Virus record (IMG/VR): IMGVR_UViG_3300027833_000073 | Coordinates: 1 to 50,168 of that record | DNA: 50,168 nt | Strand: one strand, 5' to 3' | Origin: a virus | Shown here: positions 6,201 through 49,910 of the stretch, one piece after another | Position numbering within the stretch: position 1 is the first letter of the stretch | Layout: every line of letters begins with the position of its first letter | The notes under the pieces: model-generated | Seen by the model: only the letters and a program-made list of their open reading frames with translations | Told to the model about the DNA's origin: nothing | The model's database searches: none | Translations under genes and position numbers: made by a program

Positions 6201-9200
6201 CTTCCACGAAAACTTTCATGGATTTAGAAAACTGTATGGACACTTACCTGAAGTACAAGCTATGATGAAAGCTATTGTAGACCAGGAAATATACAACAGC
6301 ATTAAAATGACTTATGCTAGAAACATTGTTTATAGCCATAAAAGAATAGCTGGCTCTGGTACAATACTACAAAAACAAGCATTAAAAGTTATTAATAGAA
6401 ACAGAGGTGCTAACAATAAAATAGCTACTACTATAAATGAATACTCACAAATGAAAGGTGAGTCTATTACATTTGAATTACATAAAGAATTTTATGAAAG
6501 TAGTTTAGAAATACTAAAGAAAGAAGGTTATGTAGAACTAGAATCTACTAATCAAACTAATATACAAGACGAAGCGTTAACTAAGCTTGCTGGTATATAT
6601 GGTGCTGAAAATCAAGACATGTTTATAGCAGACCCTGCAAAACGTAAGGCCTATAATGAAAGCATGAAGTCTTGGAAAAGTAAAATAGCTAGTGCATTTA
6701 CTAAAGAAGAAGCAGAGTTTTCATTAGAAAAAGCATCTAAAGGTCAATACAAAAAAGGAGACGGTCTTGATTTAGAAGAATCGTTTGCACAAATAAAAGA
6801 TTTAATTGCTACTAAAGAAAAACGTTATTCAAATCTTAAAGAATCACCATCAACTCTTGACATACAAGCTCTAGAGCGTGATGCTGTAAGAAAAGAAATA
6901 CGAACTGTATTAGTAGGAGAGAGAGATAATATTATTAAGGCAGCTCAAGATTTTAAGAGTAAAGATTTGCCTAAAATTTTGGAAGAATCATCCACTGGTG
7001 AAACTGATGTAGATGCACAACTTGAAGACATCAAAAGTAAAATAGCTACAAGTTCAGCATTTAGAAAATTAAGAGTTGGATTAGTACAAAAAATCTTATC
7101 TCCATACAAGCCTGGAACTGAGGACTTTAACACTGTAAGGGAGATGTTGTTGACAGATGAAAAATATCTATCTAACATTATGAACTCTTTCTTTCAGTCT
7201 AAATTACAAGAAGACGCAATTAACGAACTTAATCAACAAATGATTATGTTTGATAATAACACAATGGAAGCGTTAAGAGACGATATTGATGATGAGTCTG
7301 GTGCTATGTTAGCACAAATATTAGACGAGCATGAGCATATGTCTGACAAGTTTTATAAAATTGTTAGAATGTTTATAGAAAAAGAAAAGTATATAGGAAG
7401 TAATTCTATAAGCGGACGTGAACTTAAAATGGTTACGAACAAAGAAAACATAATGAGAGGGTTAAAAAAGTTAAGTCTTGAATACCCTTCAGCAGAAATG
7501 TTTGTAACAGAAGCGCAAGAGTTGATTGAAAAAAGAAACTTTAATCCAGATGTACTAGAAAAAGTAACAGGTAATTTTTTACACTTTTTAAGTACAGAGA
7601 TAGACTCAGTTGGTCAAGACATATTTAGTGCTGTTTTGTTGCAGTTCCGTTCTATGACAACAGAAAAAGGTCTGATGATAAAAGATGGTACATGGGCGTT
7701 AGCTATGACCACGCAAATGCGAAGAGATATTAACAAAGCTCATAATACAGTAAGAGAAAATTGGGAGCAAAGTCTTACATATAGAAATGAAGAAACAAGA
7801 GGTGAGTGGCTAAAGTCATTGGCAGAAACAAGAATAAGTTCTTATAATGCTATCAAATTTAATTCAGCGCAAACTCGTCAAGACAAGGATAAATATTATA
7901 AACGTATTAATCTAAAAAACACGCAACAGCACTACGACATATACAGAAATTATGAAGCAAGACTTGATATATCAAGAGGGCTAGCTAAATTACTGTACGA
8001 AACTAATGGCTTTAATGACAAGAATGTTTTAGACTTTATAAACAGAAACATGCTTCCGTCAGACATGCAGCTTACTTTTAAGCAATTTAAAGAACAAAGC
8101 ATAAAAGATGAAAACGGTAATATATACAGTATACAAAACTACTTTACGAAAGAACGTATAGAAGAAATGTTTTGGAAAACTATAGCAGTTGATTCTACAC
8201 TACAAGAGCAATATAATGAAGAAATAGGCTTAAAAAGATTCCAACAAATTGCTGAAAGAGATGTACTTAATCAGATTTTAGGTAATAGTTTTTACGATGT
8301 TGAAATGTCGCGTCATCTTAAATCTTTAAAAGTTAATATATCAGACGAGAAAAAACAAGAAATACGTAATATTTACCAACAAAAAATAGCTGATAGATTC
8401 CAAGAGTCTAAATGGACTAATGCCTTACAAGAACAAAACGAAGCATATATAGTGCAGGCTGACTCTTTATATATGTACGATTTTTCCGTTAAGGAAGGTA
8501 AAGACATAGACGGTTTAACTTTTGAATCAGGTAAGGTAGATGAAGACAATCCTAACTCTACGTCTAGAACTTTCTTTATAAAAAGTGGTACTGATGTAAA
8601 TGAGGTACAAATTAAAAAAGACGGTACATACAAAGTAGTAAAGTCGTATCACAAAAAAGAATATGGTTCTGTAAGTCTGTTTGTAGTGTCAGTTCAAGAC
8701 AATCCAGATGTTCGTGCTGTATTCCAAGACCTTAAGGGTTTGTCTTACTCATCTAAACAAATTATAGGCGCGATATTAGACGACACTAATGAAGGTTATA
8801 TGTCTAATCAAATATCTCCTGAAAGCAATCAGATTAATAAGGTGTTAAGAAAATACTTTTTAGAGTACCACAAGGATTCGTTGTCTGATTATATAAAAGA
8901 AAACAAATCAGCTTTCTTATCTATGTTTACGTATGGCAAAAAAGCTATACATGTAAATCCGTATGCTATGGGTATGGCACAGGAAGACGTTCTCAGTCCA
9001 AGTTATTATGAATTGAACTACAGAACTAACGACGGTGATTTAGATAATGTGGTAGATAGAAATAGAATGACAAACACCGCTGTTACTACAGCAGACTTTA
9101 ATCAAATTTTATTAGCAATAGAAAACGGTAACGATACGTATCATCAAGTAATAAAAGATTACTCAGATAAATCAAGACGTTACTACGCGAAAGCTTATAC

Positions 9201-12200
9201 AATCAAAACAAGAGAAGAAGCTTTTAGAAAACTAAAAGATTTAGTTGATTATCATAAAGCTAAAACACAATCTATCGTTGATAAACACAATGATACTAAC
9301 AACGATTTTGATATACACTTAGTCGTTGGTGCAGATATTATTGCTAAGCTAGAAGAATCGGGTTATTTAATTGACCAATTAGAAGTCGATAATAGAGGCG
9401 CACTAAAAGGTACTAGAGGTCAACTTAACTTATTAGATGATGAGATTTTTAAGTTAACTATTGACGGAGAAAGTTATGACCTATCTAACATAAAAGAGCA
9501 CAGCAGAATGATGAGTGTGTTATCAGGTAGAGTAGACTTAGGTGGTGATGTTTCTACACAATTATTAGCTAGTGTTAATTATTTTGTAAATAAGTATTGG
9601 CTACAAGACTTAAACGCTTCTACGATGGAAGAGCAAAGTTTTGTAATGAAAAACAAAAGAGCTACTGGTTGGATTGCAAATCATGACTCAACCTTCGCAG
9701 GAGAAAGAGTTGAGCTTATTGTTTTTAAAGACGTAGAAGTTACTAATGAAGACCTTGTACACAAAGTACAAGTACTAGGCCCTAATGGATTAGAGTCTGT
9801 TGACATTGCAGCAGAAACTATGGATTCAGCATCTTACGTAACAGAAGAAACTGCTAACAGAATTATTAACAAACACGGTAATATTGTTGACGTTAAAGGT
9901 TCTTTTAAATTCGTTGGTTACGGTAGAAATATAGATAACAAGAAAATAGCTTCGTTTTTTGGACAAGAGTCAAATCAATTTTATGCTAAAGGTCACACTA
10001 TAGTATTAAATGAAAAAACACAAGGACCTCTTAAGTCTATATATAAAGCGTTGAAAGCTAGAGAAAAATACAATAAAGATAACGGACTTCATCTAAATAA
10101 CGTTATGGCTTATGCTAATGACGCAATAAAGAAGGGGTTGGTTTATGGTAAAGGAGACAAACAAAAAAATCACTTAGGTTTAAATGAATGGGCTAGCTTA
10201 CTTAAAGAAGGTGATGAAGCTGTTAATAATTTTATTAATAGTTATTCTTACGATGAAATGTCAGATAACTATGGATATGATGGTAGATTCTTTGGTATAC
10301 AAGGAGAGTTAGATAAAGACTCTAAAACTGCAACCGCATCTAAACAAATGTTTTCTAACATACAGTTGTTTTTAGACCACCCTAACAGCGAAGTACGTAA
10401 GGCTGCACAAGCTATAGCAATATCTCATATTTCTGCTTTAGAAGAGCAAACTAATTCTTCTGAAGTGATGACAAAATCTAGAGAAGATTTATTGCTAGGT
10501 AAAATAGAAGATGAATCTTTTGCTACAACATTGAAGACTTTGCTAGAAGATGGCTACACTGACATGCCTGCAATGAGAGATGCATTACTTAAGTTATTGC
10601 AAGCAAAAATAGTAAAAGGTGCAACAAAACTTAGAACAGGTGGTACGTTATCACTACAAGAATCAGATGTGTTATACGGTTGGAAAGCAGGTGAAGTAAA
10701 AGACGTAGTGCAAACAGACCTATCCCTTAAACCAATGAGTGTTATTGCTAACACTAATTCACCTAAATATAAAGGAAAGAAAAAGGCTGAAGGATACAAA
10801 GTACAAGTGGCAGAAGCTGCTATATCATCACACATGGCTGAACAATTAGGTTTAACTTCTGATGATTATGACAGCAAAACAGGTAAAATTAAAGACGAGA
10901 AGCAAGTTGAGTTTTTAGCTACGCGTATACCTGCAGGTTCAAGTGGCTCAACAGTGGTTTTAAAGTCAGCATATGTTGCATTAAAGCCTGGAAATACTAT
11001 AGCAATACACCCGACTGTATCTGCTATATTAGGTTCAGATTTAGATGGTGATATGTTACACATTAACACTATAAATACAAGCGAAAACCTAAGCCCTTTA
11101 CAGGAAAAAACAAACACACTTACGCAGTCTATAATGGATATGTATAAGATGCCTGAGATACAAAACTCATTAACTAAAGAAGTTGAGTTTAAATCTGTAA
11201 TGAAAGCTACAGACAGTGTTTTAGAATCAGGAGCTTCAGATATAGCTAACGACTTTTCTTTATTAGGTGCACATCAAATGTATGGGCAAACTAAAGGTAA
11301 CGCTCCTATGATTGCTTTAATTGCATCACAGAACTTAGTGTATAATTACATCTCTAAGGGTAATCCTTCTATTATGTTTGAAGGTAAAGAGTTGTCGTTT
11401 ACAGACTCACAAGGTGATATTATACCATTAAGCAAAGAATTGAAAACTTTAGATAATAACTTCACAGAAGATGGTGGGGGAACTTGGTATGAAATAACTA
11501 AGTATCTTAACTTAATATTAGATGATGGTAAAAACAATAAAAGAGCTAAGTATGGGTTTATGAAAAACACAGGCTCAGCTTTTGTTATGTTGCTTAAAAT
11601 GGGTGTAAGGCCAGAAAAGATAGCATCATTTATGAAGAGTACGCAATGGAACAGTAATCCATTGTACATGTTTTACGATGAACAAGAAAATAGATTAGAA
11701 TTAGAGTCTAAACTTAAGGAGGCTTTACTAAAAAGATTACCTAAAAAAGAAGCAACACAATTAAAGAACGCAAGTCACGAAAAACTAATAGACGCTGTAT
11801 ACAGCAAAGACGGTAAATTATCATTTGATTTAAGTAATACAAATGAAATTGACCAGCTTGCTTTGTTTTTAACTTTTCAAAAAGTTAATGACGATATATT
11901 TAGTATCAGTCACTTTTTAAGTTTAGATAAAGCTTTCAGTGCTGAACCTATTATTGCTATGTCAAGACATCATAAAGGATTGTCAGCATTAGCCAATCAA
12001 ACAAGCAAAGACTTGTTAGTGGATACTATAGGTAGTAAAATGGGTAATGAGGGTTCTTTCTTTAGAAGGTCAGTCAAACTGCATAGTAAATTACTAAACA
12101 AACTATTTACAGAAGACCCTGAATACTCTAATGGTTATACATATGGTTTGTTAGGAGCTATGCAAATAGATGGTCTAAAAGACAAATCAGGCGTGCATTC

Positions 12201-15200
12201 AAGTTCTGGTGTTTTAAATAGTGAAATTAACACGTATAGTAAAACAGCTAAAGACAATAAAGGTGCTGAAAAACACATTGGTATTTTAACAGATGGTAAA
12301 AAATACGAACTGTCAGAATACGAAGAGGCTAATATTAGACTAGCAAAAGCTTTGACTCTTACAAGGGCAGCTATACATAGTAATATTGATTTAAAAGCTA
12401 GCATAATAGACAATGTTGTAAACCCAAAAAATACAAGAATTATAGAGCAACATCCTTATTTTAATTATTTAACTAAAGCTGAACAGTATGCAATAGTAAC
12501 ACAAAAAATATCTGAAATTTTAGATGACCCAATGTTTGCAGACAATAGGTTCGGTGAGTACGTAGATGACAATGTTAGTTATAGATTTACATACGGTCAT
12601 GAAATACAAAAAATTAGACAAGAAAATAAGGTTGATAAACCAGCAGAGCCTTCTTCTGTAACACCACAATTTAAAACAGAAAAAATACACCCAGGAGTAG
12701 AAGTTAAAAGAAACTCTATAACAGAAGAAGAACAAAAAGAATTATTTGAAATGCTTAGCCCTTATATAATAGAGCAAGGAGCTAAAACAAATAAATCAAA
12801 GTCTGCACCAGTTATGATTGGTTTAGGTTTAAGATGGGATTATAAAAGTAACAACCCTAATTTAAATCCAATAAATGTAGGAGACATATTAGGAGGTCTA
12901 GGGCAGAAAGAAAAATATGGTTATTACGATAAAGCTATTGATGGTTCTGATTTACCACCTATAAATAATAGGCTAAAAGAATTAATGACCAAAGCAACAG
13001 GTATTGATGCTAGCAACTATGATGGCGCTATAGTTAATGTGTACAGAGATGATTCATTTATAAGTACACATCAAGATGTAGATGAATCTGCAGGTGCTAA
13101 AAAATACCCTGTTTTAGTAACTAACCTAGGTGGTTCAGGAAATCTATCACTAGAAAGAGTAGGCGTTCAACAAGTGAACTTAGACTCTGGTGATTCATAT
13201 GTGTTTGGTATTGACGGTGTTAATAGAGATGTGTTCCATAGAACGTTTCCTAATAATGCAGATGGATTCTTACCAGCTATTAGTACTAGGTTAGATGGTC
13301 AAAACTTTAAAGCAGGAGAGTATAGAATATCAATAACTCTTAGACGAGTGAAACCCCTTGAGTCAGGAATGCCTGCACAGCCTGCGCAGTTAAGTGACGC
13401 AGAAGTTGCAGAAACATACATGACTGGTAATGAGGTTATTAAAAAAAATAAGGTAGTTAGCTTTAAGCCAAACATGAATAAGCTAATGAACACTATTGAC
13501 TTTACAGAACAAATTAGATTAATACAAAAAGATTTTGCTGCTCTTCCAGGTTTTGTTAAAGACTTTTTTATAGCAAACGATTTTCTTGCAACAGGTTGGG
13601 GTAGTAACGGAAACTCTTTAACTCCGTTCTTTAATAAATCTTCATTAGACAAAATAAACACCACTTATAAATCTATAAAAGACGAAAGTGTAAGTACGTT
13701 TGAAAAAGATATTGAAAAATACGCTAAGAAGAATCCTAACTACATTAAAGTAAAGCGTAAGGACAAAGCACAAGAGACTACTATAAATGCTCGTAGAATG
13801 GCTGCAATGGCATATATGGCTATACATGGTAATGATTATGCATTTGATAATAACGGGTTGTTTAAAACATCTACAGAGCAAATAGGTTCTAACGAAAAAA
13901 ACACTGTTGTTACTATTGAAGACAATCATTTTAAATCTGATAGGTTAGTAGATAAAAAACAATATTTAGATAAAAATCTAACTAAGCGCCCTATTTTATA
14001 TTACGAAGGGTTTAGAGAAATTAACATGCTATCTGCTTTTAGCGACTTAATGACTAAAAACAAAACTGTTCAGTCTAACAACATTGTGTACAGTAATGGA
14101 ACAGACGATACTGTACAGTACAATCAAGTGCCAGTATGGGAGTTTGAAAAAGGTCAGTCTTATAAAGGGATTGGCGAGAAAATGTCACCTGAAGAATACG
14201 CACAGCGTAAAGGTTACGACATGGCTACTATTAGCCCAGACGAAAAAGAAAGGCTAGAGAAGGACTACATGATTTATGAAGAGTCTACTAAGTTAGTATC
14301 AAGATTGCATGATAAACTAATGCAAGAAGGTATAGACAACGTAGAAGGCTATAGATACAACAATCTTAAAGGCACAGAAAAAAATAATCAAAAGAATTCT
14401 ATAGATGCTAAGTTTAAACAAGCTCAAGGTTTGTTTAGAGAATACAATGACGCTTTAACACACGATAAGTTTATATTGTCTGATTCTTTACAGCAGAACT
14501 TGTTTAAGAAAACGCAAGGGCCAATAGAGGCTAATATAGATGAATATGCAGCAGACCCATTAAGAAGGTTTTTAGAATTTCATTTTGGAAATCATATATC
14601 TGAATATCAAATATCTGAATGGGAGTTTGTTAATGGAAAAGACTTTGTAGAATCTATTACACAAGCTGAAAAAGATAAAGATATATCTGATTTAAATATG
14701 TGGCTGTCTCCAGGAGATTTTGGTAAAAGTAAACCTGCAGTTGCATATATTAATAAAAACATGAAAATGACCCACATGAAGTACACAAGGAATCTTAACC
14801 TTGTTACTAAAGAGATGAACGATAAACTCGAAGGGTTGTTTAAGTTAAAGTTTGGTAATAGTATAGAAGGTAAGGCTAAAAAGTTCTGGATGAAATATTC
14901 ACCTGTAGGAAACAAATCTATAGTTGACACGTTATTTGAAAACTTAGTAGTACATACAACTGGATTAAAAAAAGTTATACAAAAAGACGGTTCTGTTATA
15001 TACAGAGACATGTCAAATACTAAATTAAACCCTGAGTTATTTAAGTCTGATGGTAGCATAAAAGATGGGGCAAACACTGTATATAGTAGGTTAGCTAAAG
15101 AAGAACAAGACTACCTAAAGATGTATACAAAGTTTACTAAATTTTATTCAGGTCTAATAGAAAACAAAGAGCTTTACTCACAATCAAAAGGTGCTACATA

Positions 15201-17148
15201 CATACCTGGTATATCGTCATCTAAATGGGAGACATTACAGCGAAGAGGTTTGTTTGGTGTTTATTTTCAAGCCTTTAGAGGTGACAATGATTTGCACGAC
15301 TTACAAATTACTGCTGTAAATCCACTTACAGGAAACACTGAAACGTTAGATTATTTTAGTTGGAAATCTATTTTCTTATATAGAAGTGAAGATGATAATT
15401 CATTTGTAGTAAAAGAAGTACAAGGTAGTGACGGCTCAACAAGAAGTACGTACTCGAATGTATCTAACAAACAGTCAGGTGTTGAACGTATTGTTAGTTT
15501 TGAACAAATCAAAGAAAGGGCTAGACAAATAATGAAGTCTGGTACTGATGATGCAAACAGACCAGTGATGAAAAGCTCGCCCATCAATGATGTAATGGCA
15601 CTAGAGTCAGAAGCTGCAATGAATAGATTTAACGCAAAGCAGTCTATGTCTTCATCGTATTTAGCTACAATGAACCTACATAAAGCTTTGTTAAACTATG
15701 TTCAGATATTTATGTTTCAACATGGTACTGCATATAGAGATGGAGAAACATTTAAGTTTTTAAAGTTTGATATTGATGACCGTGAGTTTAATGAGGCTTC
15801 TTTTAATTTAGATGATGCTAATAAAAAAGAAAACAAACTTGCGTTCACTGGATTTGAAGACAAGAAGCAAGAAATAGATGCTGCTATAGCAAATCTTGGT
15901 AGTGGTAAGTATTACGATAGTAATATTAAAATAGGAACAGGAAAAAACAAAAACGCTATTAACTACTTACAAAAAGTTGTTAAAAGACATCTTATAAATA
16001 AAGAAAGAGGTTTTACTTTTAGTGGTGTAGAAGCAGAGTCAGGAATAACAAACTTTTTTGTTAACTGGACTATGTATATAGCGTTAGGTTTAAATGTACC
16101 TGCAGCTATTGGTAACGTAATGATTGGTAAATACAACGCTTGGAGACAAATGGGTATTGGCGACATGGCTAAAGGAGAAGAAAGATTTTGGGGTGTAAGT
16201 AGTGAAAAAGGCTACGACTCAAACAAAATGAAGAAGTCACGAGCTATGATAGAAGAGTTTGGTATACTTACATATAGAGCAGAAGAAATTGCAGAAGGTG
16301 TAGGTGGAAGCTCTTTAAGTTCTTTGATATTTGCACCAATGATTGCTGCAGAACAATGGATACAACATGCTGCCTTTTTAGGCGCTCTAACCGATGAACA
16401 GTGGAATGCCTATGAGTTAAACAAGAACGGAGATTTAGTTCTCAAAAAAGGTGCTAACCCTATAACACAAGAAGAGTTAGCTATATTAGAAAGAGATGTA
16501 GTAAACGTACAAGGTCGTGGGTATTCTGAAACAGATAGTAGAATGATACAACTTTATTCTTTATCTAACATGACTATGCAATTTAAAAGATGGTTTCCAA
16601 CATTCTTAAGAGATAGATTTGGTAAAGAAGATATAGACGACTTAGGTACTTTACGTATGGGTTCTATACCTGCAGTTGCAGACTTTATGGCCAAAATGAA
16701 AGAAGAAGGAAAACAATACGATATACGTAAATGGAACGAAGAGCTTAAAAAGCTACCTAAACACAAAAGAGATGCAGTGCTAAGATGGTGGAGAGGAACA
16801 CAAGGTGTTGTTATAGTAGCTATGTTAATGGGTATGGCAGGAATGGCAATGGATGACGACGAAAAGAAAGATAACCCAGCATATGAAATGATGGAAAAAC
16901 TTCTTGGAGATATGTTATTAATTGTTAACGCGCCTAAACTTGTGTATATGGGTAACATACCAGCTTTAAATACGTTTAAAAACTTAAATTTAGCTGTATA
17001 CCACGCTGCAGTTGGTAGTGAATACTCGCGTAAGTCTAAGTACGGTGAAAAAGGAGATAAAAAGTTTGTATCAAATCTTGCACAGCTTTTACCATCACCT
17101 GCTCGTATTCCGTTGACACTTTCTGAAAAGAAGAAAAGAACTTTGTAA
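3265..17148 (+). CDS. Giant 4627-aa polyvalent virion protein: zincin, RNAP-like DxDGD and AlkB domains
   Basis: One uninterrupted 13,884-nt frame. In order: Pro/Asn-rich head (1-100); Gly/Ala-rich hydrophobic helices (about 181-345), as in proteins that open a DNA-ejection channel; helical region; acidic linker (about 780-815); HExxH at H981/E982/H985 (FFHENFHGF), a zincin protease signature; long helical region; RNA-polymerase-type region with IAIHP followed by SDLDGD (D2592, D2594, D2596), the double-psi barrel Mg-binding motif, with candidate partner lysines K2242 and K2289/K2290; AlkB-type dioxygenase with H3269-x-D3271, H3325 and R3354/R3360 (RISITLRR); C-terminal part with a membrane-like segment near 4262-4286, MQFKRWFPTFLRDRFG at 4438 and a TM helix near 4514-4532. 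Phage polyvalent proteins are known to string such effector domains together and enter the host with the DNA. The motifs are seen; catalysis and packaging are inferred. Confidence 0.93.
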   Translation: MAEDSLWNPNVGTPQEGINEYDQSLNSNFDKPDVNDGLNPPNQNVAQSAQPEPSQEDSGMWGYTEQARLEQNQMSPNPIPDIPEAGRPGIDYDMGVVEKVGKSLMVGFGDMFQSVGDMVDFFDGSPSNAIELQVFGTQSDKPISDSLHNFAEYLQSYGDDVPGLTDLQDVTFESLLEPDFWMTSVARSLPFALSLMIPAGAAARGVGLLTKGAKFEAAAAAIAAGGRSIGLSANVSTALAATNLIKTGAATVAAGATSNFLEGAALAGQAMNEAIAQGVPVEDARLVGEQVMKDNLLSMGADIAQYALFMGAGGVGWAAKKGLQGLSGTVVGKTATAASKKAAIAALKNPGMTSVIKRASKILGAGAANGLTDGMIEQFQEVYQDWSVQRRIADAKGEDFPDYLEFFQDKEQLPTRVVSFATSLLMSGASNMIRTASENRVFLDKSLDDRLESHELLDIFNNEVEAGEYVTNKPTYTVDPTTGEPVEKDNITVLKAEQMQELGRDTAARTMIMNAVRGGVAETARVMEFLGAQLQAGTISESQMEMYQSTLTEVQDAVAKYPTQNLNNKQKTKLVAHAWLNNTVTQAIAKQIEDFDAQINEIQSLVDDGTQKQPWADGEIAGINVAKEQALKELKSIKSSSSETIRQIYKEAEQQTAKDVFQKNVAPLLDSAAQKASKGESLTSEEQEAVDNNKAAYKSYTESYTKVDAINKASEKLGKNISDYESTVNEDGSVEFKKSENGNTNVVTVDKDGNVTEKNSRTSDIVDEAVENLEQEAEQNQDSETTEDDGGIDEAINKEESVEAETINTEINSKNSTAGAIKLALENNLDISSLIGKGSGKNKRILKADVQRLLDVVNNTPEGQDDGQGRLFNSLLEGAKLINKQVAKSAKKVFSKETYGSVVSYVKKHMAKRRIKNAFIIGQGSERVLQSLFADKAADGLISSAIMTDIAKKGTNFLGYMAGLSVFIDADSEYADETFFHENFHGFRKLYGHLPEVQAMMKAIVDQEIYNSIKMTYARNIVYSHKRIAGSGTILQKQALKVINRNRGANNKIATTINEYSQMKGESITFELHKEFYESSLEILKKEGYVELESTNQTNIQDEALTKLAGIYGAENQDMFIADPAKRKAYNESMKSWKSKIASAFTKEEAEFSLEKASKGQYKKGDGLDLEESFAQIKDLIATKEKRYSNLKESPSTLDIQALERDAVRKEIRTVLVGERDNIIKAAQDFKSKDLPKILEESSTGETDVDAQLEDIKSKIATSSAFRKLRVGLVQKILSPYKPGTEDFNTVREMLLTDEKYLSNIMNSFFQSKLQEDAINELNQQMIMFDNNTMEALRDDIDDESGAMLAQILDEHEHMSDKFYKIVRMFIEKEKYIGSNSISGRELKMVTNKENIMRGLKKLSLEYPSAEMFVTEAQELIEKRNFNPDVLEKVTGNFLHFLSTEIDSVGQDIFSAVLLQFRSMTTEKGLMIKDGTWALAMTTQMRRDINKAHNTVRENWEQSLTYRNEETRGEWLKSLAETRISSYNAIKFNSAQTRQDKDKYYKRINLKNTQQHYDIYRNYEARLDISRGLAKLLYETNGFNDKNVLDFINRNMLPSDMQLTFKQFKEQSIKDENGNIYSIQNYFTKERIEEMFWKTIAVDSTLQEQYNEEIGLKRFQQIAERDVLNQILGNSFYDVEMSRHLKSLKVNISDEKKQEIRNIYQQKIADRFQESKWTNALQEQNEAYIVQADSLYMYDFSVKEGKDIDGLTFESGKVDEDNPNSTSRTFFIKSGTDVNEVQIKKDGTYKVVKSYHKKEYGSVSLFVVSVQDNPDVRAVFQDLKGLSYSSKQIIGAILDDTNEGYMSNQISPESNQINKVLRKYFLEYHKDSLSDYIKENKSAFLSMFTYGKKAIHVNPYAMGMAQEDVLSPSYYELNYRTNDGDLDNVVDRNRMTNTAVTTADFNQILLAIENGNDTYHQVIKDYSDKSRRYYAKAYTIKTREEAFRKLKDLVDYHKAKTQSIVDKHNDTNNDFDIHLVVGADIIAKLEESGYLIDQLEVDNRGALKGTRGQLNLLDDEIFKLTIDGESYDLSNIKEHSRMMSVLSGRVDLGGDVSTQLLASVNYFVNKYWLQDLNASTMEEQSFVMKNKRATGWIANHDSTFAGERVELIVFKDVEVTNEDLVHKVQVLGPNGLESVDIAAETMDSASYVTEETANRIINKHGNIVDVKGSFKFVGYGRNIDNKKIASFFGQESNQFYAKGHTIVLNEKTQGPLKSIYKALKAREKYNKDNGLHLNNVMAYANDAIKKGLVYGKGDKQKNHLGLNEWASLLKEGDEAVNNFINSYSYDEMSDNYGYDGRFFGIQGELDKDSKTATASKQMFSNIQLFLDHPNSEVRKAAQAIAISHISALEEQTNSSEVMTKSREDLLLGKIEDESFATTLKTLLEDGYTDMPAMRDALLKLLQAKIVKGATKLRTGGTLSLQESDVLYGWKAGEVKDVVQTDLSLKPMSVIANTNSPKYKGKKKAEGYKVQVAEAAISSHMAEQLGLTSDDYDSKTGKIKDEKQVEFLATRIPAGSSGSTVVLKSAYVALKPGNTIAIHPTVSAILGSDLDGDMLHINTINTSENLSPLQEKTNTLTQSIMDMYKMPEIQNSLTKEVEFKSVMKATDSVLESGASDIANDFSLLGAHQMYGQTKGNAPMIALIASQNLVYNYISKGNPSIMFEGKELSFTDSQGDIIPLSKELKTLDNNFTEDGGGTWYEITKYLNLILDDGKNNKRAKYGFMKNTGSAFVMLLKMGVRPEKIASFMKSTQWNSNPLYMFYDEQENRLELESKLKEALLKRLPKKEATQLKNASHEKLIDAVYSKDGKLSFDLSNTNEIDQLALFLTFQKVNDDIFSISHFLSLDKAFSAEPIIAMSRHHKGLSALANQTSKDLLVDTIGSKMGNEGSFFRRSVKLHSKLLNKLFTEDPEYSNGYTYGLLGAMQIDGLKDKSGVHSSSGVLNSEINTYSKTAKDNKGAEKHIGILTDGKKYELSEYEEANIRLAKALTLTRAAIHSNIDLKASIIDNVVNPKNTRIIEQHPYFNYLTKAEQYAIVTQKISEILDDPMFADNRFGEYVDDNVSYRFTYGHEIQKIRQENKVDKPAEPSSVTPQFKTEKIHPGVEVKRNSITEEEQKELFEMLSPYIIEQGAKTNKSKSAPVMIGLGLRWDYKSNNPNLNPINVGDILGGLGQKEKYGYYDKAIDGSDLPPINNRLKELMTKATGIDASNYDGAIVNVYRDDSFISTHQDVDESAGAKKYPVLVTNLGGSGNLSLERVGVQQVNLDSGDSYVFGIDGVNRDVFHRTFPNNADGFLPAISTRLDGQNFKAGEYRISITLRRVKPLESGMPAQPAQLSDAEVAETYMTGNEVIKKNKVVSFKPNMNKLMNTIDFTEQIRLIQKDFAALPGFVKDFFIANDFLATGWGSNGNSLTPFFNKSSLDKINTTYKSIKDESVSTFEKDIEKYAKKNPNYIKVKRKDKAQETTINARRMAAMAYMAIHGNDYAFDNNGLFKTSTEQIGSNEKNTVVTIEDNHFKSDRLVDKKQYLDKNLTKRPILYYEGFREINMLSAFSDLMTKNKTVQSNNIVYSNGTDDTVQYNQVPVWEFEKGQSYKGIGEKMSPEEYAQRKGYDMATISPDEKERLEKDYMIYEESTKLVSRLHDKLMQEGIDNVEGYRYNNLKGTEKNNQKNSIDAKFKQAQGLFREYNDALTHDKFILSDSLQQNLFKKTQGPIEANIDEYAADPLRRFLEFHFGNHISEYQISEWEFVNGKDFVESITQAEKDKDISDLNMWLSPGDFGKSKPAVAYINKNMKMTHMKYTRNLNLVTKEMNDKLEGLFKLKFGNSIEGKAKKFWMKYSPVGNKSIVDTLFENLVVHTTGLKKVIQKDGSVIYRDMSNTKLNPELFKSDGSIKDGANTVYSRLAKEEQDYLKMYTKFTKFYSGLIENKELYSQSKGATYIPGISSSKWETLQRRGLFGVYFQAFRGDNDLHDLQITAVNPLTGNTETLDYFSWKSIFLYRSEDDNSFVVKEVQGSDGSTRSTYSNVSNKQSGVERIVSFEQIKERARQIMKSGTDDANRPVMKSSPINDVMALESEAAMNRFNAKQSMSSSYLATMNLHKALLNYVQIFMFQHGTAYRDGETFKFLKFDIDDREFNEASFNLDDANKKENKLAFTGFEDKKQEIDAAIANLGSGKYYDSNIKIGTGKNKNAINYLQKVVKRHLINKERGFTFSGVEAESGITNFFVNWTMYIALGLNVPAAIGNVMIGKYNAWRQMGIGDMAKGEERFWGVSSEKGYDSNKMKKSRAMIEEFGILTYRAEEIAEGVGGSSLSSLIFAPMIAAEQWIQHAAFLGALTDEQWNAYELNKNGDLVLKKGANPITQEELAILERDVVNVQGRGYSETDSRMIQLYSLSNMTMQFKRWFPTFLRDRFGKEDIDDLGTLRMGSIPAVADFMAKMKEEGKQYDIRKWNEELKKLPKHKRDAVLRWWRGTQGVVIVAMLMGMAGMAMDDDEKKDNPAYEMMEKLLGDMLLIVNAPKLVYMGNIPALNTFKNLNLAVYHAAVGSEYSRKSKYGEKGDKKFVSNLAQLLPSPARIPLTLSEKKKRTL

Positions 17149-39537: not shown

Positions 39538-40827
39538 TTAGTAAATATTTTCTATTTCGTCAAATTTAGTTAAGTAGTTTGTCCACTTAAGCCATTTGCT
39601 TCCTATACCTATATTTCTACCCTTAGCAAATATTATTTCTGCTCTAGCTTCTGTGCTTTTGCCTTCGCTGTCTGCATCAATACCGTAATATTCTGGCCTG
39701 TATACAAACACTACTGCATCTGCTGCTTGTTCTATTTCACCTGATTCTCTAAGATTAGATAGCATTGGCCTGCATCCTTCATTACGTTCTACACCCCTAG
39801 ATAATTGCGATAAAGCAATTACTGTAATGTCTAGCTCTTTAGCTATGTTTTTAAGGGAGCGTGCAATGACAGATACCTCTTGCTCCCTGCTTCTTCCTTT
39901 AAGCATGTTGCTCACAAGCTGGAGATAATCTATCATTACAAGCTTAACACCCTTAGTAATAACATATTGCCTAATTTTATTAAGCAAATAGCGAAGGCTG
40001 GTGCTTTTACAATCGTCTATATACAAAGGCAACTTCTCAATGCTACCCGTAGCACTATGAATAGTACTCCATTCATCAGCCGTTAGAGTACCTTTTATCA
40101 GGTATCTATTGTCTATATTAGTTTCGCAACTTAATATTCTAGACATTAACTGTGTTGTAGACATCTCGTAAGAGAATATAACGCTATTATGGCCTGCTCT
40201 AGCAGCATTTGATGATAAAGCTAGTGCAAAGGACGTCTTACCCATAGATGACGCACCACCGACGATAATAAGGTCTTGAGGTTGCCAACCACCTGTAAAC
40301 CTATCGATAGATGAAAAGCCTGAAGTTATACCACTTATACCAGATGATAGTGAATTTTTCTCTATGACTGCTATGGTATCACGCAAATGCTGAGTAATTT
40401 CTACAATAGAACCAACATCAGACTTACTTACATCAATTAATGATTTTTCTATAATAGAAATATTATCATCTACGTCTTTGTTGTCAATGTTGTGTAATAC
40501 GTTTTGACATAAAGACTTAACAACAGACTTTTTATGGTCGTTTTTAAGATGCATTATACAGGTTAGAGTCTCGTGCATGTAACTTATACCACTGTCTGAA
40601 CATACTGCTAGATGATAAGAAATATTATCGATACCCTGTATATCTGTACTAGCTTTTAGTATATCAAACTTTCTACCTTGTTGATACTCTGCATCTAACC
40701 ATACAAATATTTCACGATGTATAGGGTCAGTGAATAGTTCAGGCACAAGAATTTCATTATACTCGTAGTAATCAGATACTTTGTGTATAAGCTTACTAAT
40801 TAGTATTTGCTCTATATTACCGTTCAT
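39538..40827 (-). CDS. dnaB: Replicative DNA helicase, DnaB family
   Basis: 429 residues, normal for phage DnaB. N-terminal helical domain 1-135 (IEQILISKLIHKVSDYYEYN), linker, then RecA-like domain: Walker A GGASSMGKTS (190-199), SYEMS (219-223), Walker B LVMIDYLQLV (296-305), SQLSRGVE and the SNLRESGEIEQAAD motif with the arginine-finger region. It unwinds DNA at the phage fork. The loader is probably the overlapping upstream gene. No primase, polymerase or clamp lies in the window, so the phage uses host enzymes or genes outside. Confidence 0.95.
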   Translation of the reverse strand: MNGNIEQILISKLIHKVSDYYEYNEILVPELFTDPIHREIFVWLDAEYQQGRKFDILKASTDIQGIDNISYHLAVCSDSGISYMHETLTCIMHLKNDHKKSVVKSLCQNVLHNIDNKDVDDNISIIEKSLIDVSKSDVGSIVEITQHLRDTIAVIEKNSLSSGISGITSGFSSIDRFTGGWQPQDLIIVGGASSMGKTSFALALSSNAARAGHNSVIFSYEMSTTQLMSRILSCETNIDNRYLIKGTLTADEWSTIHSATGSIEKLPLYIDDCKSTSLRYLLNKIRQYVITKGVKLVMIDYLQLVSNMLKGRSREQEVSVIARSLKNIAKELDITVIALSQLSRGVERNEGCRPMLSNLRESGEIEQAADAVVFVYRPEYYGIDADSEGKSTEARAEIIFAKGRNIGIGSKWLKWTNYLTKFDEIENIY

Positions 40828-43297: not shown

Positions 43298-44728
43298 TTA
43301 ATCTATTGTATTTCCATTTCTTCTGTATCCCGATGGTAACTTATCATAGTAAGCACCACCTTCTGTATAATTATGAGCGAATAAAGCTACACGTTTTTCG
43401 TAATATTTCATAATTTGTTCACCTATATTATCACCTAAAGATGTTTTAATAACTTCTTCAAGAGTAATTTCTGACAAATTATACCATATTTTTTTCTGGT
43501 TGTTTTCTGCATAGCGTACAATAGCCATGCATATCAACGTCCAATTGCGTATTTTAATATAACTCATAGATGCACCATGATTTCTGAACTCTACTGTCGG
43601 TTTACCACTGTTACTACTAAAGTTAACGCAGTTAATCCACCTGTAACGTGTTGAAGGATAACTTCCAAGATGTGATTTCTTGTTACAGTTTTTACTTAAC
43701 TCACTACCAGAACCGTGTATGTACTTACCTAAATGCTCACGCCAATTAGTTAGATTGATGTCCATTACATAATCAGGTATGTATTTACAGAAAGTATTAC
43801 CAAGCCTAGAAGGTGGCATCATACGATAGATTTCATTTTGAATTTGATAACCGAGACGTAGTAGCATGATAGTGAACAGTCTATTGAATATACCACCGAC
43901 GTGTACATGAATACCACAACGTTTATTTATCTCATGGTCTTCTGCTACTGCTTCGCATATATCCTTGAGATGATTAAAGCCGTAGTCACCCTTAAGAACA
44001 CCTGTAACATACTCAGGACCACTAGTTGAACCATCGTATACAGAAGATAAATTAAGTTCACTCCAATCATCTAATCTACCTCGACTTGTTTCTATCTCTA
44101 CACCGAATGTATAACGCATACCGTTAGTAATAGAATATGTAGGGCTATTTGTACCAAAACGTTTTTGTGTATCTAATGAATCTGATTTATGAGAGCTTCT
44201 TTTGTTATCAAAGTAACAGTCATCATCATCATTGTCATTACAATAACATGGGTCATCTACGTGTCTGTATTCATCACAACATTCATTATGGTGTATATCA
44301 TGTTCTGAAGCTACATCGTCATCAATGTATATAACATCGTTAACTCTTATATAACATTCATTATAATGGAAGTGACCTTCATGTCTTCTGCCTATCCAAC
44401 CATATACTGAGTCACCTTCTTCAATGAAATTTTCATTCCAACAATCCCATACAATATGCTGGGCGCAAGACTGCCATTGATTATCTATGAATGCATACTC
44501 ATGCTCTTCAGCAAACCAAATCATTTCTTCTTGAGTGAATCTGTCTTCATCAAGCTCATTACCTTCTTCTAAGTAAGTAAATCTACGCTCAACATCTATT
44601 TCAGTACCACCTACAGTAATAGTACACATAGCACTTTCCTGTGTTGCATCATCAAATGATGTCATGTCAACTGATTCATTGACTGACTCTTCACCTATGA
44701 TATTAGTTACATCTATTTCTTCTGGCAT
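43298..44728 (-). CDS. Amidoligase (COOH-NH2 ligase, Amidoligase_2-like)
   Basis: 476 residues. The C-terminal catalytic part shows the family motifs: GVEIET (209-214), YDGS (231-234), GPEYVTG (237-243), CGIHVHVGG (271-279) and a late VEFRNHG. These belong to the glutamine-synthetase-like amidoligases, which use ATP to join a carboxylate to an amine. Residues 1-200 form a separate acidic region rich in Cys/His (FHYNECY, HHNECC, CYCNDN), perhaps metal-binding. A class II amidotransferase lies two genes upstream and a GGCT gene downstream in the same operon. Substrate unknown: peptide tag, cell wall or metabolite. Confidence 0.85.
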   Translation of the reverse strand: MPEEIDVTNIIGEESVNESVDMTSFDDATQESAMCTITVGGTEIDVERRFTYLEEGNELDEDRFTQEEMIWFAEEHEYAFIDNQWQSCAQHIVWDCWNENFIEEGDSVYGWIGRRHEGHFHYNECYIRVNDVIYIDDDVASEHDIHHNECCDEYRHVDDPCYCNDNDDDDCYFDNKRSSHKSDSLDTQKRFGTNSPTYSITNGMRYTFGVEIETSRGRLDDWSELNLSSVYDGSTSGPEYVTGVLKGDYGFNHLKDICEAVAEDHEINKRCGIHVHVGGIFNRLFTIMLLRLGYQIQNEIYRMMPPSRLGNTFCKYIPDYVMDINLTNWREHLGKYIHGSGSELSKNCNKKSHLGSYPSTRYRWINCVNFSSNSGKPTVEFRNHGASMSYIKIRNWTLICMAIVRYAENNQKKIWYNLSEITLEEVIKTSLGDNIGEQIMKYYEKRVALFAHNYTEGGAYYDKLPSGYRRNGNTID

Positions 44729-47359: not shown

Positions 47360-47390
47360 TTCGCTTTCAATTTAGTTAGTTAATAAAAAA

Positions 47391-47413
47391 TAAGCAGTTT
47401 CAACACATGCTTA
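47391..47413 (-). promoter_or_regulatory. Conserved leader hairpin, copy 2
   Basis: TAAGCA, 11-nt loop (gtttcaacaca), TGCTTA, 32 nt before the 65-aa gene. Together with copy 1 the conserved block reads AATAAGCAGTTTnAnnACATG on the plus strand, followed in both cases by TTATTAACTA toward the gene. The conservation in two unrelated leaders indicates a regulatory RNA or DNA site. Confidence 0.6.
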
Positions 47414-47519
47414 GGTGTATCTCATGCAACTGTATATCCCATTAGACATAACTGTTACTTTAAACAAGAGATTGTGCCGTAATAGTCTTTCCTATAAGTC
47501 ATGATACAACACTTATTGT

Positions 47520-47644
47520 TCCTAGAGGTTGCTTTCTTGGGTACTTGGGGTTGCACGGCGTATCTACCGCTCGTCCTGGCCAGTGGACGGTACATTAACT
47601 GTGGCCACACGTCTTAGCCTTGGACGGTGTACCTTGTTTTTTTA
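47520..47644. other. GC-rich multi-hairpin island
   Basis: Inside the 553-nt gene-free stretch 47360-47912. Around half G+C in AT-rich surroundings. Contains CGTCC/GGACG (47572-47576 with 47585-47589), the 10-nt palindrome TGTGGCCACA (47600-47609) and GGTACA/TGTACC (47589-47594 with 47628-47633), the last followed on the plus strand by TTGTTTTTTT. This looks like a structured RNA with a plus-strand terminator, but the strand is not certain. Confidence 0.45.
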
Positions 47645-47666
47645 GCGAAACACAATTTATTGCACG

Positions 47667-47699
47667 CAATTAAAACAGGAAACAAAGGAAAAAACGACA
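47667..47699 (-). repeat. 33-nt box, copy 1
   Basis: CAATTAAAACAGGAAACAAA followed by GGAAAAAACGACA. Two further copies at 49190-49222 and 49583-49619 share about 75-85% of positions. Each lies downstream (minus-strand sense) of a TGATAGTGA motif and just before a hairpin. Confidence 0.65.
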
Positions 47700-47768
47700 T
47701 GGGCATCAAACACTAACGTTAACGGTTTGTAATACTGTGCATCGGATTGATAGATATTACCCTGCATA

Positions 47769-47777
47769 TGATAGTGA
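47769..47777 (-). repeat. TGATAGTGA motif 1
   Basis: Exact copy on the plus strand (TCACTATCA in the direction of early transcription). It stands 70 nt before 33-nt box copy 1. A near copy, TAATAGTGA, is at 47833-47841. Around it lie the AGCCC/GGGCT and CGAC/GTCG stems and a repeated AGCGTTGG (47780-47822). Confidence 0.6.
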
Positions 47778-47890
47778 GAGAGCCCGACGGCAGTCGAAAC
47801 TAAGCGTTGGCAAAGCGTTGGGCTACGCCTAGTAATAGTGACTACTACAATGGTACATACAGTAATAGTATATAGTACAATGGTTACATC

Positions 47891-47927
47891 AAAAAAAAAG
47901 GTACAAAAGAGTTTAATCTTTTGTGCC
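47891..47927 (-). terminator. Rho-independent terminator after 47-aa gene
   Basis: On the minus strand GGCACAAAAGA, 6-nt loop, TCTTTTGTACC (11 positions, one G-T pair) followed by nine T. It overlaps the stop codon of the 47-aa membrane protein. This is the strongest terminator in the window and separates the upstream short units from the main operon, so the main operon needs its own promoter below 47890. Confidence 0.85.
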
Positions 47928-48056
47928 TAATGTTTCTTTAATTGTTGAGTTTAATGGTGTTTTAGTTACACGTTTTTGATTATACAATGATTTTATACAA
48001 ACAAATAGTATACTTAAAGCACAAAATAAGATGATGCAGTCAAATATTACAAACAT
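47913..48056 (-). CDS. Single-pass membrane microprotein, 47 aa
   Basis: MFVIFDCIILFCALSILFVC followed by IKSLYNQKRVTK and a polar tail: one TM helix, N-out/C-in by the positive-inside rule. Starts 25 nt after the terminator hairpin of the gene before it and ends in its own terminator, so it forms a one-gene unit. Small early membrane proteins in phages often block superinfection or alter the membrane; not proven here. Confidence 0.62.
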   Translation of the reverse strand: MFVIFDCIILFCALSILFVCIKSLYNQKRVTKTPLNSTIKETLGTKD

Positions 48057-48073
48057 AATATGTTATTTAAGTT

Positions 48074-48098
48074 AAAAAAAAGGGGACGTAAGTCCCCT
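48074..48098 (-). terminator. Rho-independent terminator after 210-aa gene
   Basis: AGGGGAC, GTAA loop, GTCCCCT: perfect 7-bp GC-rich stem (48081-48098), followed on the minus strand by eight T. It lies 4 nt past a TGATAGTGA motif and 25 nt before the 47-aa gene's start, so the hairpin may also be part of the recurring motif-hairpin-gene arrangement. Confidence 0.82.
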
Positions 48099-48101
48099 AT
48101 G

Positions 48102-48110
48102 TGATAGTGA
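48102..48110 (-). repeat. TGATAGTGA motif 2
   Basis: Exact copy, 4 nt before the 7-bp GC hairpin in the minus-strand direction and about 45 nt before the 47-aa gene's ATG. A further TGTTAC/GTAACA hairpin (48118-48135) lies on its other side. Confidence 0.6.
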
Positions 48111-48174
48111 ATGGATTGTTACCGACTTGTAACAGTTTAACACGCAGGTCGTGAGTGTCCATAAAACTAAGCTA

Positions 48175-48807
48175 CTACCACAAACTACCGCCACGCTTTG
48201 AACGTGGTGTATTGTTTGTAGTTTTCTCAAGGTCGAATGAGCTTTTTGCAACGTAATCAGTTGTTGCAATAGTAAAGTCTTTCATTTTTGAGTGGTAGTA
48301 CGTCTGAACTGAAAGTTCTGAACCTGCCAAAGCTGATAAATCAGATAAGTCAAATTCAGTCTTGTTTTCACGCAAGATTGAATACAGTTTAGACGTACTA
48401 CGAGGTAGCTTATAATTGCTTGCAAAATCTTGCAAGGAATTATAAAGAATAACACCGTCAGCGTCACACATAGCTAAAATAGCTTTAGCTATTTTGGTTG
48501 TGCCCGCAGGTAAGTTATTCTTTAGCTCGAAGAGATAAATTTCTTGAGCTATAGTCTTTACGGTCTTGTTCGGAAAACGAAGGTTGAACGTAAAGATATT
48601 ATTACCAGTTTCCAAAGAAGGAAATGATAATTTTAATAACGCTTGGTCTATGGTAGACGTTTCGTTATTATAAGTTTTCGTTGCTTTACTGTCAACGAAA
48701 CTATCAACTAATGCTGTTATTTTAGCATTAGTTGAATTTAAACGCATTGGCGATTTAACGCTAGCGTTTCTTTTACCCGAAGGTAAGTCAAAAGCAAAAT
48801 TTTCCAT
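48175..48807 (-). CDS. Unknown early protein, 210 aa
   Basis: Globular, mixed helical protein; segments SFPSLETGNNIFTFNLRFPN and KTIAQEIYLFELKNNLPAGT precede a stretch with winged-helix character (GVILYNSLQDFASNYKLPRS, then KLYSIL). The C-terminus is basic (TTNNTPRSKRGG). It stands alone between two regulatory gaps with its own terminator, and may be an early regulator; this is inference. Confidence 0.65.
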   Translation of the reverse strand: MENFAFDLPSGKRNASVKSPMRLNSTNAKITALVDSFVDSKATKTYNNETSTIDQALLKLSFPSLETGNNIFTFNLRFPNKTVKTIAQEIYLFELKNNLPAGTTKIAKAILAMCDADGVILYNSLQDFASNYKLPRSTSKLYSILRENKTEFDLSDLSALAGSELSVQTYYHSKMKDFTIATTDYVAKSSFDLEKTTNNTPRSKRGGSLW

Positions 48808-48838
48808 TCTCTATAGAGTTTTAGGGAAAATTAATAAA

Positions 48839-48862
48839 CTGTTTAGCTGAGTTACTAAACAG
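48839..48862 (-). promoter_or_regulatory. Leader hairpin of 210-aa gene
   Basis: CTGTTTAG, 8-nt loop, CTAAACAG: perfect 8-bp stem located 4 nt after TGATAGTGA motif 3 and 32 nt before the start codon, in the minus direction. No U-tract follows, so it is not a standard terminator. Confidence 0.6.
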
Positions 48863-48866
48863 GCAA

Positions 48867-48875
48867 TGATAGTGA
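48867..48875 (-). repeat. TGATAGTGA motif 3
   Basis: Exact copy, followed toward the 210-aa gene by the 8-bp leader hairpin. Same motif-to-hairpin distance (4 nt) as at motif 2. Confidence 0.6.
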
Positions 48876-48920
48876 ATCAAACTGTTTTTTTACAGGAGGG
48901 CTATCAACTCCAAGAACTGT

Positions 48921-49181
48921 AAAAAATGCAATTTTTTGCACTATTAAAATTACGCTAGCTAGACACGTAAACCTTTATCCGTAGGATGGTTTTTTATATT
49001 TACAACGTGGGTTGCTAGCAACCTTGAGCGTATAGTCAAGGTTAGAAGGTATCAGTTTTACAGCATGATTAGGCTGAAGGCTAAGTTTATACACGTTAAC
49101 TTGTGAGTGTAAACAGTTTTTATGGTTAGACTTGTTCAGGTCTTGATTTACGACTTATATTAGAACAACGAAGTTGTCTAA
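48921..49181 (-). ncRNA. Candidate early noncoding RNA
   Basis: No ORF fills the gene-free stretch 48808-49296. Reading the minus strand from the hairpin near 49181 (after motif 4 and 33-nt box copy 2) there are a GTTTA-ACAC/GTGT-TAAAC stem, AACCTTGA/TCAAGGTT (49020-49043), the palindrome GGTTGCTAGCAACC (49010-49023) and finally TGCAA-AAAA-TTGCA followed by six T (48921-48940), a weak intrinsic terminator. Promoter-like start plus terminator suggest a transcript near 250 nt. Confidence 0.4.
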
Positions 49182-49189
49182 ATGCATAG

Positions 49190-49222
49190 CAATTAAAACA
49201 GATAATAAAAGAAAAAACACAC
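49190..49222 (-). repeat. 33-nt box, copy 2
   Basis: CAATTAAAACAGATAATAAA followed by AGAAAAAACACAC. It lies 48 nt past TGATAGTGA motif 4 and just before an AGACAAC-TTC-GTTGTTCT hairpin in the minus direction. Confidence 0.65.
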
Positions 49223-49269
49223 AGCACGGCACAGCATAACTTTTTTCAACTGTAAGTTTTGTACGTTTG

Positions 49270-49278
49270 TGATAGTGA
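49270..49278 (-). repeat. TGATAGTGA motif 4
   Basis: Exact copy 19 nt beyond the stop of the 81-aa gene, upstream of box copy 2. Confidence 0.6.
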
Positions 49279-49296
49279 GAAAAAAAAAGAACTTAC

Positions 49297-49542
49297 CTAA
49301 AAGGGAAGTTCATCTTCTTCTATAACAACGGAATTTGCAATAAAGACATCGTGTATTACTCTATCTAATAGTTTGATGTCTTTAGCATACTCGATTAGAG
49401 TATGTTCAATGCTTCCCGATATATCATCTTTATCATCGTTTTCGTAATGAAACGAGTTAGATTGATTGATAAGATTATCGTGAAGTTTTAACAAAACGTC
49501 AATTGGCAAATTGACGAGTATTCTTTCAGCTTGGTTCTCCAT
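49297..49542 (-). CDS. Small acidic early protein with SSB-like tail, 81 aa
   Basis: Acidic helical protein (LVNLPIDVLLKLHDNLINQS, YENDDKDDISGS) ending in VIEEDELPF. The last residues copy the form of the bacterial SSB C-terminal tip (acidic stretch, hydrophobic, Pro-Phe), the docking tail for RecQ, PriA, RecO and exonuclease I. As the first protein gene of the early region it might occupy those host pockets. Preceded by motif 5, box copy 3 and a 7-bp hairpin. Confidence 0.65.
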   Translation of the reverse strand: MENQAERILVNLPIDVLLKLHDNLINQSNSFHYENDDKDDISGSIEHTLIEYAKDIKLLDRVIHDVFIANSVVIEEDELPF

Positions 49543-49562
49543 AATTGGTTTTCAAGTTTATA

Positions 49563-49582
49563 ATAGAACTTAATTGTTCTAT
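49563..49582 (-). promoter_or_regulatory. Leader hairpin of 81-aa gene
   Basis: ATAGAAC, 6-nt loop, GTTCTAT: perfect 7-bp stem directly joined to box copy 3 and 20 nt before the ATG at 49542. Confidence 0.6.
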
Positions 49583-49619
49583 CAATTAAAAGAGATAATA
49601 TAGGAAAACAAGCACAACA
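49583..49619 (-). repeat. 33-nt box, copy 3
   Basis: CAATTAAAAGAGATAATATA followed by GGAAAACAAGCACAAC. It lies 9 nt past TGATAGTGA motif 5 and touches the ATAGAAC/GTTCTAT hairpin. Confidence 0.65.
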
Positions 49620-49628
49620 GCTACATTG

Positions 49629-49637
49629 TGATAGTGA
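49629..49637 (-). repeat. TGATAGTGA motif 5
   Basis: Exact copy; the most compact of the three motif-box-hairpin modules, all within 75 nt, followed by the 81-aa gene. Confidence 0.6.
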
Positions 49638-49652
49638 ATGTTAGTAAGTTAC

Positions 49653-49793
49653 TTAATAGTACCAAACACTTAAATAAATAACATTGAGCACAATTGTTTA
49701 CAATTGTAGACTTGACAATGTCGATTATTTATTGTACCTTTGGTGGGAGAGTGGTAATTACTACGTTAACAGTATCGAACACTTAAATGAATA
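49653..49793. repeat. Two direct copies of a 28-nt repeat
   Basis: Copies at 49653-49680 and 49766-49793 (TTAAnAGTAnCnAACACTTA then AATnAATA) match at 24 of 28 positions, 113 bp apart. Between them lie two ACAATTGT palindromes (49690-49697, 49700-49707) and a plus-strand promoter. Iteron-like, but only two copies. Confidence 0.6.
49711..49742 (+). promoter_or_regulatory. Bacteroidota-type promoter pointing rightward
   Basis: CTTG (49711-49714), 20 nt, TACCTTTG (49735-49742), a near-perfect match to TTTG-N19/20-TAnnTTTG on the plus strand. Transcription would run away from the minus-strand operon toward 50168, where no ORF is seen; the target is a noncoding RNA or a gene beyond the window. 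Confidence 0.6.
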
Positions 49794-49901
49794 TGGTGTA
49801 CATACTTATTGACTACTACTTGTAAGTTGTTTAGTTTATACTTACTGATTACAACTCTTAACGTGTGAGTATCAATACATTACGCAACATACTTACACAA
49901 A

Positions 49902-49910
49902 TGATAGTGG
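49902..49910 (-). repeat. TGATAGTGG motif 6 (one mismatch)
   Basis: Eight of nine bases match the motif. It is the outermost copy and has no 33-nt box after it; the 28-nt repeats follow instead. Confidence 0.45.

Follow-up and report, generated by a model that had tools for sequence, protein, structure and literature searches.

Copies of a ten-letter word, TCACTATCAC or TCACTATCAT, recur on one strand within the early half of a marine crAss-like phage and its relatives; the word is very probably a phage-specific functional cis-element. The word is strict and oriented, it is conserved at the DNA level and in its synteny, it shows turnover between lineages, and the host-type promoters of these genomes are asymmetrically distributed between strands. 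Sequence comparison suggests that early and middle (replication) genes may be transcribed from a phage-specific promoter whose core is this word, a reading to which we assign a probability of roughly 0.5.

Occurrence of the word in the window

The window is the whole stretch of DNA analysed, 50,168 nucleotides of the IMG/VR record IMGVR_UViG_3300027833_000073. Its most over-represented 9-mer is TGATAGTGA, with 8 copies seen and 0.55 expected (order-4 Markov model, both strands). An exact-match scan placed all of them on the plus strand and none on the other. The right-hand genes lie on the minus strand, and the word is therefore TCACTATCA in early-gene direction, or TCACTATCAY with the next base. 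Exact copies are present at 47769, 48102, 48867, 49270 and 49629, and the variant TGATAGTGG at 49902, also on the plus strand. These six sites had been listed in an earlier inspection of the letters (the sequence-only reading), and all of them were recovered. About three extra copies, all inside genes, had also been noticed, in agreement with our scan, where the only further exact copies are at 24529, 40345 and 43867, each within a gene. The copies and their neighbouring features, with strands given in the direction of reading, are as follows:

49902..49910, minus strand: motif variant CCACTATCA(T), facing the host-type promoter P_A, 160 nt off
49712..49746 (stretch 49703-49788), plus strand: element A (P_A), conserved host-type promoter TTGAC..TACCTTTGGTGGG, late direction
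49629..49637, minus strand: TCACTATCA(C), preceding the 81-aa gene 49297-49542 by 87 nt
49297..49542, minus strand: small early gene, 81 aa, with the C-terminal tail EEDELPF resembling SSB tails
49270..49278, minus strand: TCACTATCA(C), 1 nt past a terminator T-tract (upstream hairpin z -4.3); the terminator overlaps the stop of gene 49297-49542
48867..48875, minus strand: TCACTATCA(T), then 4 nt and the hairpin CTGTTTAG..CTAAACAG (z -4.1); 60 nt upstream of gpE
48175..48807, minus strand: gpE, early gene, 210 aa, with an aromatic C-terminal tail
48102..48110, minus strand: TCACTATCA(C), at the conserved M2 position, 65 nt past the gpE stop, then the hairpin AGGGGAC..GTCCCCT and T8 (z -5.2)
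47769..47777, minus strand: TCACTATCA(T), with ATGCAGGGTA and a second ATGCACAGTA immediately after it; ahead of element B
47380..47605, minus strand: element B, noncoding and conserved (95% to the relative G011), separating the motif from the next genes
43867..43875, minus strand: in-gene copy in an amidoligase-like gene, encoding F-T-I-M, common to about half of the lineages compared
40345..40353, minus strand: copy within the DnaB-like helicase gene, at codons 159-161, TCA CTA TCA

With one mismatch allowed, 24 copies of TGATAGTGA were seen in the window and 17 expected; the excess disappears, and the word is therefore strict. Among 28 distinct noncoding copies with the core TCACTATCA, 27 have Y as the next base, and the flanks are not fixed at any other position. 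TCACTATCAY holds about 19 bits of information, which suffices for uniqueness in a 66-kb genome. Among the papers listed in a literature search for the 9-mer, the hits were only primers and unrelated text.

Several early genes possess acidic or aromatic C-terminal tips (49297-49542 and 48175-48807 in the window, 14485-14814 in the relative G026). These tips, EEDELPF, GSLW and NDDLPF, resemble those of single-strand DNA binding proteins. Element B, of about 200 nt, is partly conserved in clade B (defined below) while its neighbours diverge, and has no stable reading frame. It was also considered as a structured RNA, which was rejected, as excess folding energy and an Rfam match were both absent.

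Hairpins and the 33-nt box

Most copies have a hairpin immediately before or immediately after them, and the conserved unit is the 10-mer TCACTATCAY with a hairpin on one side. A hairpin before the copy is commonly a terminator, with its T-tract ending 1-12 nt ahead of the word. The stretches upstream of 18 out of 33 copies fold better than shuffled sequences, and these are mostly terminator-like. Two copies had been described as followed by a strong hairpin after exactly 4 nt; the hairpins were found for 48867 and 48102, with a spacing of 3-4 nt.

Three copies have the box CTGTTTTAATTG (early-gene direction) downstream of them, at about 47668, 49190 and 49581. The sequence-only reading had proposed a box and a hairpin after each of these three. 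The box is indeed present at all of them, but the hairpin is strong only in the 49629 module, and weak or irregular in the other two. No homologous copies of the 33-nt box were detected in the relatives at sequence level, and the box was rejected as part of a conserved module.

Recurrence in related phages

Using the helicase 39538-40827 as query, 79 IMG/VR loci were recovered and assigned to clades by helicase identity (A about 60-96%, B about 48-53%, C about 45-48%). A motif search in these related genomes, as the sequence-only reading had suggested, showed that the word recurs in the sister clades A and B of marine phages with a strong sense-strand bias. It ranks first among k-mers in the window (G000), G026 and G011, second in G020 and fifth in G013. 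In the clade C loci examined the word is absent or at background; fully sequenced clade C contigs possess the giant RNAP and at most one background copy of the word. In clade C, a k-mer scan for a shared replacement word turned up nothing but A-rich words and TATATTTG-like elements of host type. Nucleotide searches revealed no relatives of the window in the phage collection, and none of its vRNAP region in phages.

A gene-blind scan of 2.9 million IMG/VR viral contigs with the extended form TCACTATCAYNATGCANNGTA retrieved 11 contigs, ten of which belong to the phage group: six were already-known members, and of the five others four have gpE homologs adjoining the word.

The word is usually placed right behind transcription terminators. 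In most lineages the M2 copy comes directly after the terminator of one and the same early gene, gpE, and lies within about 30-210 nt past its stop, ahead of the replication operon. In clade A, ATGCANNGTA comes after the M2 copies, often as iteron-like repeats. The M2 copy is missing from loci L010 and L031, and is the only copy in L040 and L042.

Clade B exceptions aside, the conserved word is located upstream of early genes and oriented with transcription. The exceptions are copies in opposite orientation, at 14028, 14448 and 14918 in G026, 2878 and 3230 in L037, and 83 in L031. Reversed clade B copies with TATAT ahead were observed at L035 2038, 1618 and 1148, L037 3230 and 2878, and L031 83 (all minus strand); each is accompanied by a hairpin where small early genes terminate (3' end), and some of these genes are DDLPF-tailed. 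In G013, the copy at 49817 is directed into a convergent late gene, at its 3' end. A whole-genome strand bias based on same-strand copies in late genes was considered and rejected, since their number fits chance and clade C is alike.

Conservation of the word inside genes

Helicase codons 159-161 are TCA CTA TCA in all 23 of the closest complete loci (67-96% identity), while the neighbouring codons vary. Sixteen non-redundant helicases share 56 invariant Ser, Leu or Arg (six-codon) residues; five of these use a single codon, and three of the five are the adjacent codons 159-161. The partial locus L029, closer than some of the 23, has TCTTTAAAT at this site. Loci L023-25 lack the copy at 159-161, yet they possess one copy further along the same gene. 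Clade B has none in the helicase; four of its lineages carry TTCACTATCATG in an upstream DUF932-like gene (52-68% identity), where clade A has unrelated codons. In the amidoligase-like gene, the word is kept in about half of the lineages. In-gene copies are located 500-800 nt from the next gene start.

Together with glutamine amidotransferase-like and gamma-glutamyl cyclotransferase-like genes, the amidoligase-like gene occupies 43298-45845 and 35746-36147 of the window (minus strand), and similarly annotated genes are carried by phage phi14:2.

Host-type promoters

The word had been described as not matching the host promoter, and this holds: the Bacteroidetes -33/-7 consensus, TTG-N17-25-TAnnTTTG, is not present at the word. 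Upstream of the helicase, 14 clade A and B loci contain one such promoter in early direction versus 13 in late direction. In noncoding DNA of five genomes, TAnnTTTG was found 4 times in 10.2 kb in early sense and 21 times in 7.6 kb in late sense; these host-type promoter counts include related sequences and are not independent. Phage phi14:2 shows the same skew (early-sense 5 in 5.7 kb, late-sense 6 in 1.2 kb).

Two host-type sites are conserved. One lies directly ahead of the late genes and the other is element A, which as TTGAC..TACCTTTGGTGGGTAAGTGG lies opposite and facing the word, 141-360 nt away, in most lineages. Element A has a conserved start region, GGTGGGTAAGTGG, and is directed late-ward from a position within the early region in almost every lineage. 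Most clade C loci possess a TATATTTG-like element just ahead of the helicase, while clades A and B do not.

Candidate reader of the word

The window encodes a giant protein that is a candidate reader:

3265..17148, plus strand: giant protein, 4627 aa, RNAP signature GSDLDGDMLH, candidate reader of the motif

The two-barrel RNAP signature GSDLDGD is present at one site in the giant protein of every relative examined. An AlphaFold model of 1120 residues of the protein is of low confidence (pLDDT 52). In a fold search with it, all 50 PDB matches listed are RNA polymerases and the first is the P23-45 gp96 vRNAP, with weak scores, none reaching E 0.001. A PDB sequence search returned only chance antibody matches and was discarded. 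For T7-type RNAP (PF00940) there was no match in 12 records, where the positive control was likewise silent. A 2OG-Fe(II) oxygenase domain is also part of the giant protein (residues 3149-3360).

The relative G013 carries a Crassvirus capsid (PF23898, E 1e-27) and muzzle (PF25731, E 2e-124), and the relatives also carry matching portal and large terminase. The window is therefore placed in a marine crassvirus group with genomes of about 66 kb; its own contig lacks the capsid/muzzle segment, and the Crassvirales placement rests on G013. In crassviruses, early and middle genes are transcribed by the virion RNAP (PMC10136315), and early transcription of phi14:2 by this enzyme was reported to be rifampicin-resistant (PMC10136315).

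The giant RNA polymerase, presumably packaged, is thus a plausible reader of the word, as the sequence-only reading had proposed. The RNAP signature, the P23-45-like model and the crassvirus vRNAP programme speak for this proposal; against it stands clade C, which has the protein without the motif. It follows that either the specificity of the enzyme has diverged or a group-specific factor is the reader. As the word is not enriched in phi14:2 either, vRNAP specificity would need to diverge between groups.

Interpretation of the word

A promoter core of a phage enzyme is favoured because of the position behind terminators, the orientation, the codon conservation in genes, the turnover and the few host-type promoters on the same strand. 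The giant RNA polymerase would be injected together with the phage DNA, recognise the 10-nt word and transcribe in the direction in which it reads TCACTATCA. Since copies lie just behind terminators of small early cassettes, each cassette would be started afresh, and in-gene copies would let transcription begin again along the replication operon, as is the case for T7 promoters. Late genes, which lack the word, would be served by host RNA polymerase from host-type TTG..TAnnTTTG promoters. The restarting enzyme might also pull the DNA in. In its most specific form, this proposal describes a strict, short promoter core of a Crassvirales virion RNAP, kept at codon level inside genes and re-gained nearby when lost, with operon restarts and with host polymerase confined to the late genes; as a whole it is tentative, and we lean somewhat towards doubting it. 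From the earlier suggestion of early promoters or regulator sites, a phage-specific and oriented signal of early genes is well supported, and promoter is our best inference for its identity.

The main difficulties of the promoter reading are the reversed clade B copies and the distance of in-gene copies from gene starts. The reversed copies do not fit the promoter model and are not explained by it: located behind small early genes, they would yield antisense RNA.

Alternatively, the word could be the site of a phage-encoded regulator (activator, repressor or roadblock) acting on another polymerase, comparable to the L5 stoperators, which is possible but unlikely. Such a site would suit a strict asymmetric 9-10-mer found in a single orientation, by terminators and inside genes; a group-specific reader would account for the absence from clade C, and many early proteins are group-specific. 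The window protein 35132-35644 (minus strand) has a weak match to the DnaA domain IV helix-turn-helix, a fold that reads 9-mers; however, this DnaA-like protein was not found in several motif-carrying lineages. An activator would also need a second promoter element downstream at a fixed distance, which is absent, and there are almost no early-direction host-type promoters to regulate. Tyrosine integrase was not detected in any of nine genomes and there is therefore no sign of lysogeny, which also argues against a regulator.

A replication or DNA-processing signal near the origin (for strand-specific priming, nicking or fork polarity), oriented away from the origin, is improbable. Copies in G026, G020 and G018 do point away from one place, most copies adjoin hairpins, ATGCANNGTA repeats come after the clade A M2 copy, and one copy is tied to the helicase region. 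Nevertheless, the copies are few and limited to the early half, and their synteny is with terminators and gene boundaries. Late-gene copies number about one per genome, as chance predicts, and are antisense to the late genes, in clade C too.

An RNA-level element for processing, stability or termination, read in the transcript, is very improbable, despite the nearby hairpins and terminators and the 26-nt motif at vRNAP terminators of P23-45 (PMC10770324). Many copies lie outside the upstream transcript, because they start 1-12 nt past the terminator T-tract, and the best-conserved copy lies midway through the helicase gene, so that termination there would truncate the mRNA. Chance or codon usage would agree with the loss of the excess at one mismatch, but it is refuted by conservation and opposed by the 9-mer excess, the helicase codon usage, the motif-only scan and the synteny, and we give it practically no weight.

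Comparison with known systems

Crassviruses, which rank among the most abundant of all known phages, package a distinctive RNA polymerase. With a defined 10-nt candidate, and with lost or moved copies as natural controls, promoter recognition by a crassvirus RNA polymerase becomes directly testable. Such a candidate would also allow early genes to be read from metagenomic crassvirus genomes.

Similar to the Crassvirales phi14:2 and crAss001, the window belongs to a phage of the same order, judged by the capsid and muzzle of its relatives, with a giant virion RNAP-like protein and divergent early and late blocks, and in phi14:2 host-type promoters are mostly on the late side too. In phi14:2, where the vRNAP is proven, TCACTATCA is not enriched, unlike in the window, and a scan of this genome for an oriented word revealed no clear equivalent. 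The literature searched contained no published crAss vRNAP promoter motif.

Phage P23-45, which has AT-rich promoters and a tape-measure-fused vRNAP (gp96), possesses a short motif upstream of pre-early genes, conserved only in relatives with the vRNAP (PMC10770324). The motif is short as here and differs in sequence; its assignment is backed by start sites and ChIP-seq, while the window word is a candidate from sequence comparison.

Coliphage N4 uses its virion RNAP early and host RNAP late, as proposed for the window, and also has hairpins near its sites. The N4 vRNAP promoter has its hairpin at a fixed place ahead of the start; in the window and its relatives the hairpin lies upstream or downstream of the word at varying distance and is mostly terminator-like. 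Mycobacteriophage L5 stoperators are short asymmetric sites oriented with transcription, located between and within genes. The word is likewise asymmetric and oriented, while an integrase was not detected here. TCACTAT is identical to positions -8 to -2 of the T7 promoter, although the word has neither the upstream recognition half nor the GGG start. In T7, promoter copies also lie within genes along the operon, including one in the helicase gene.
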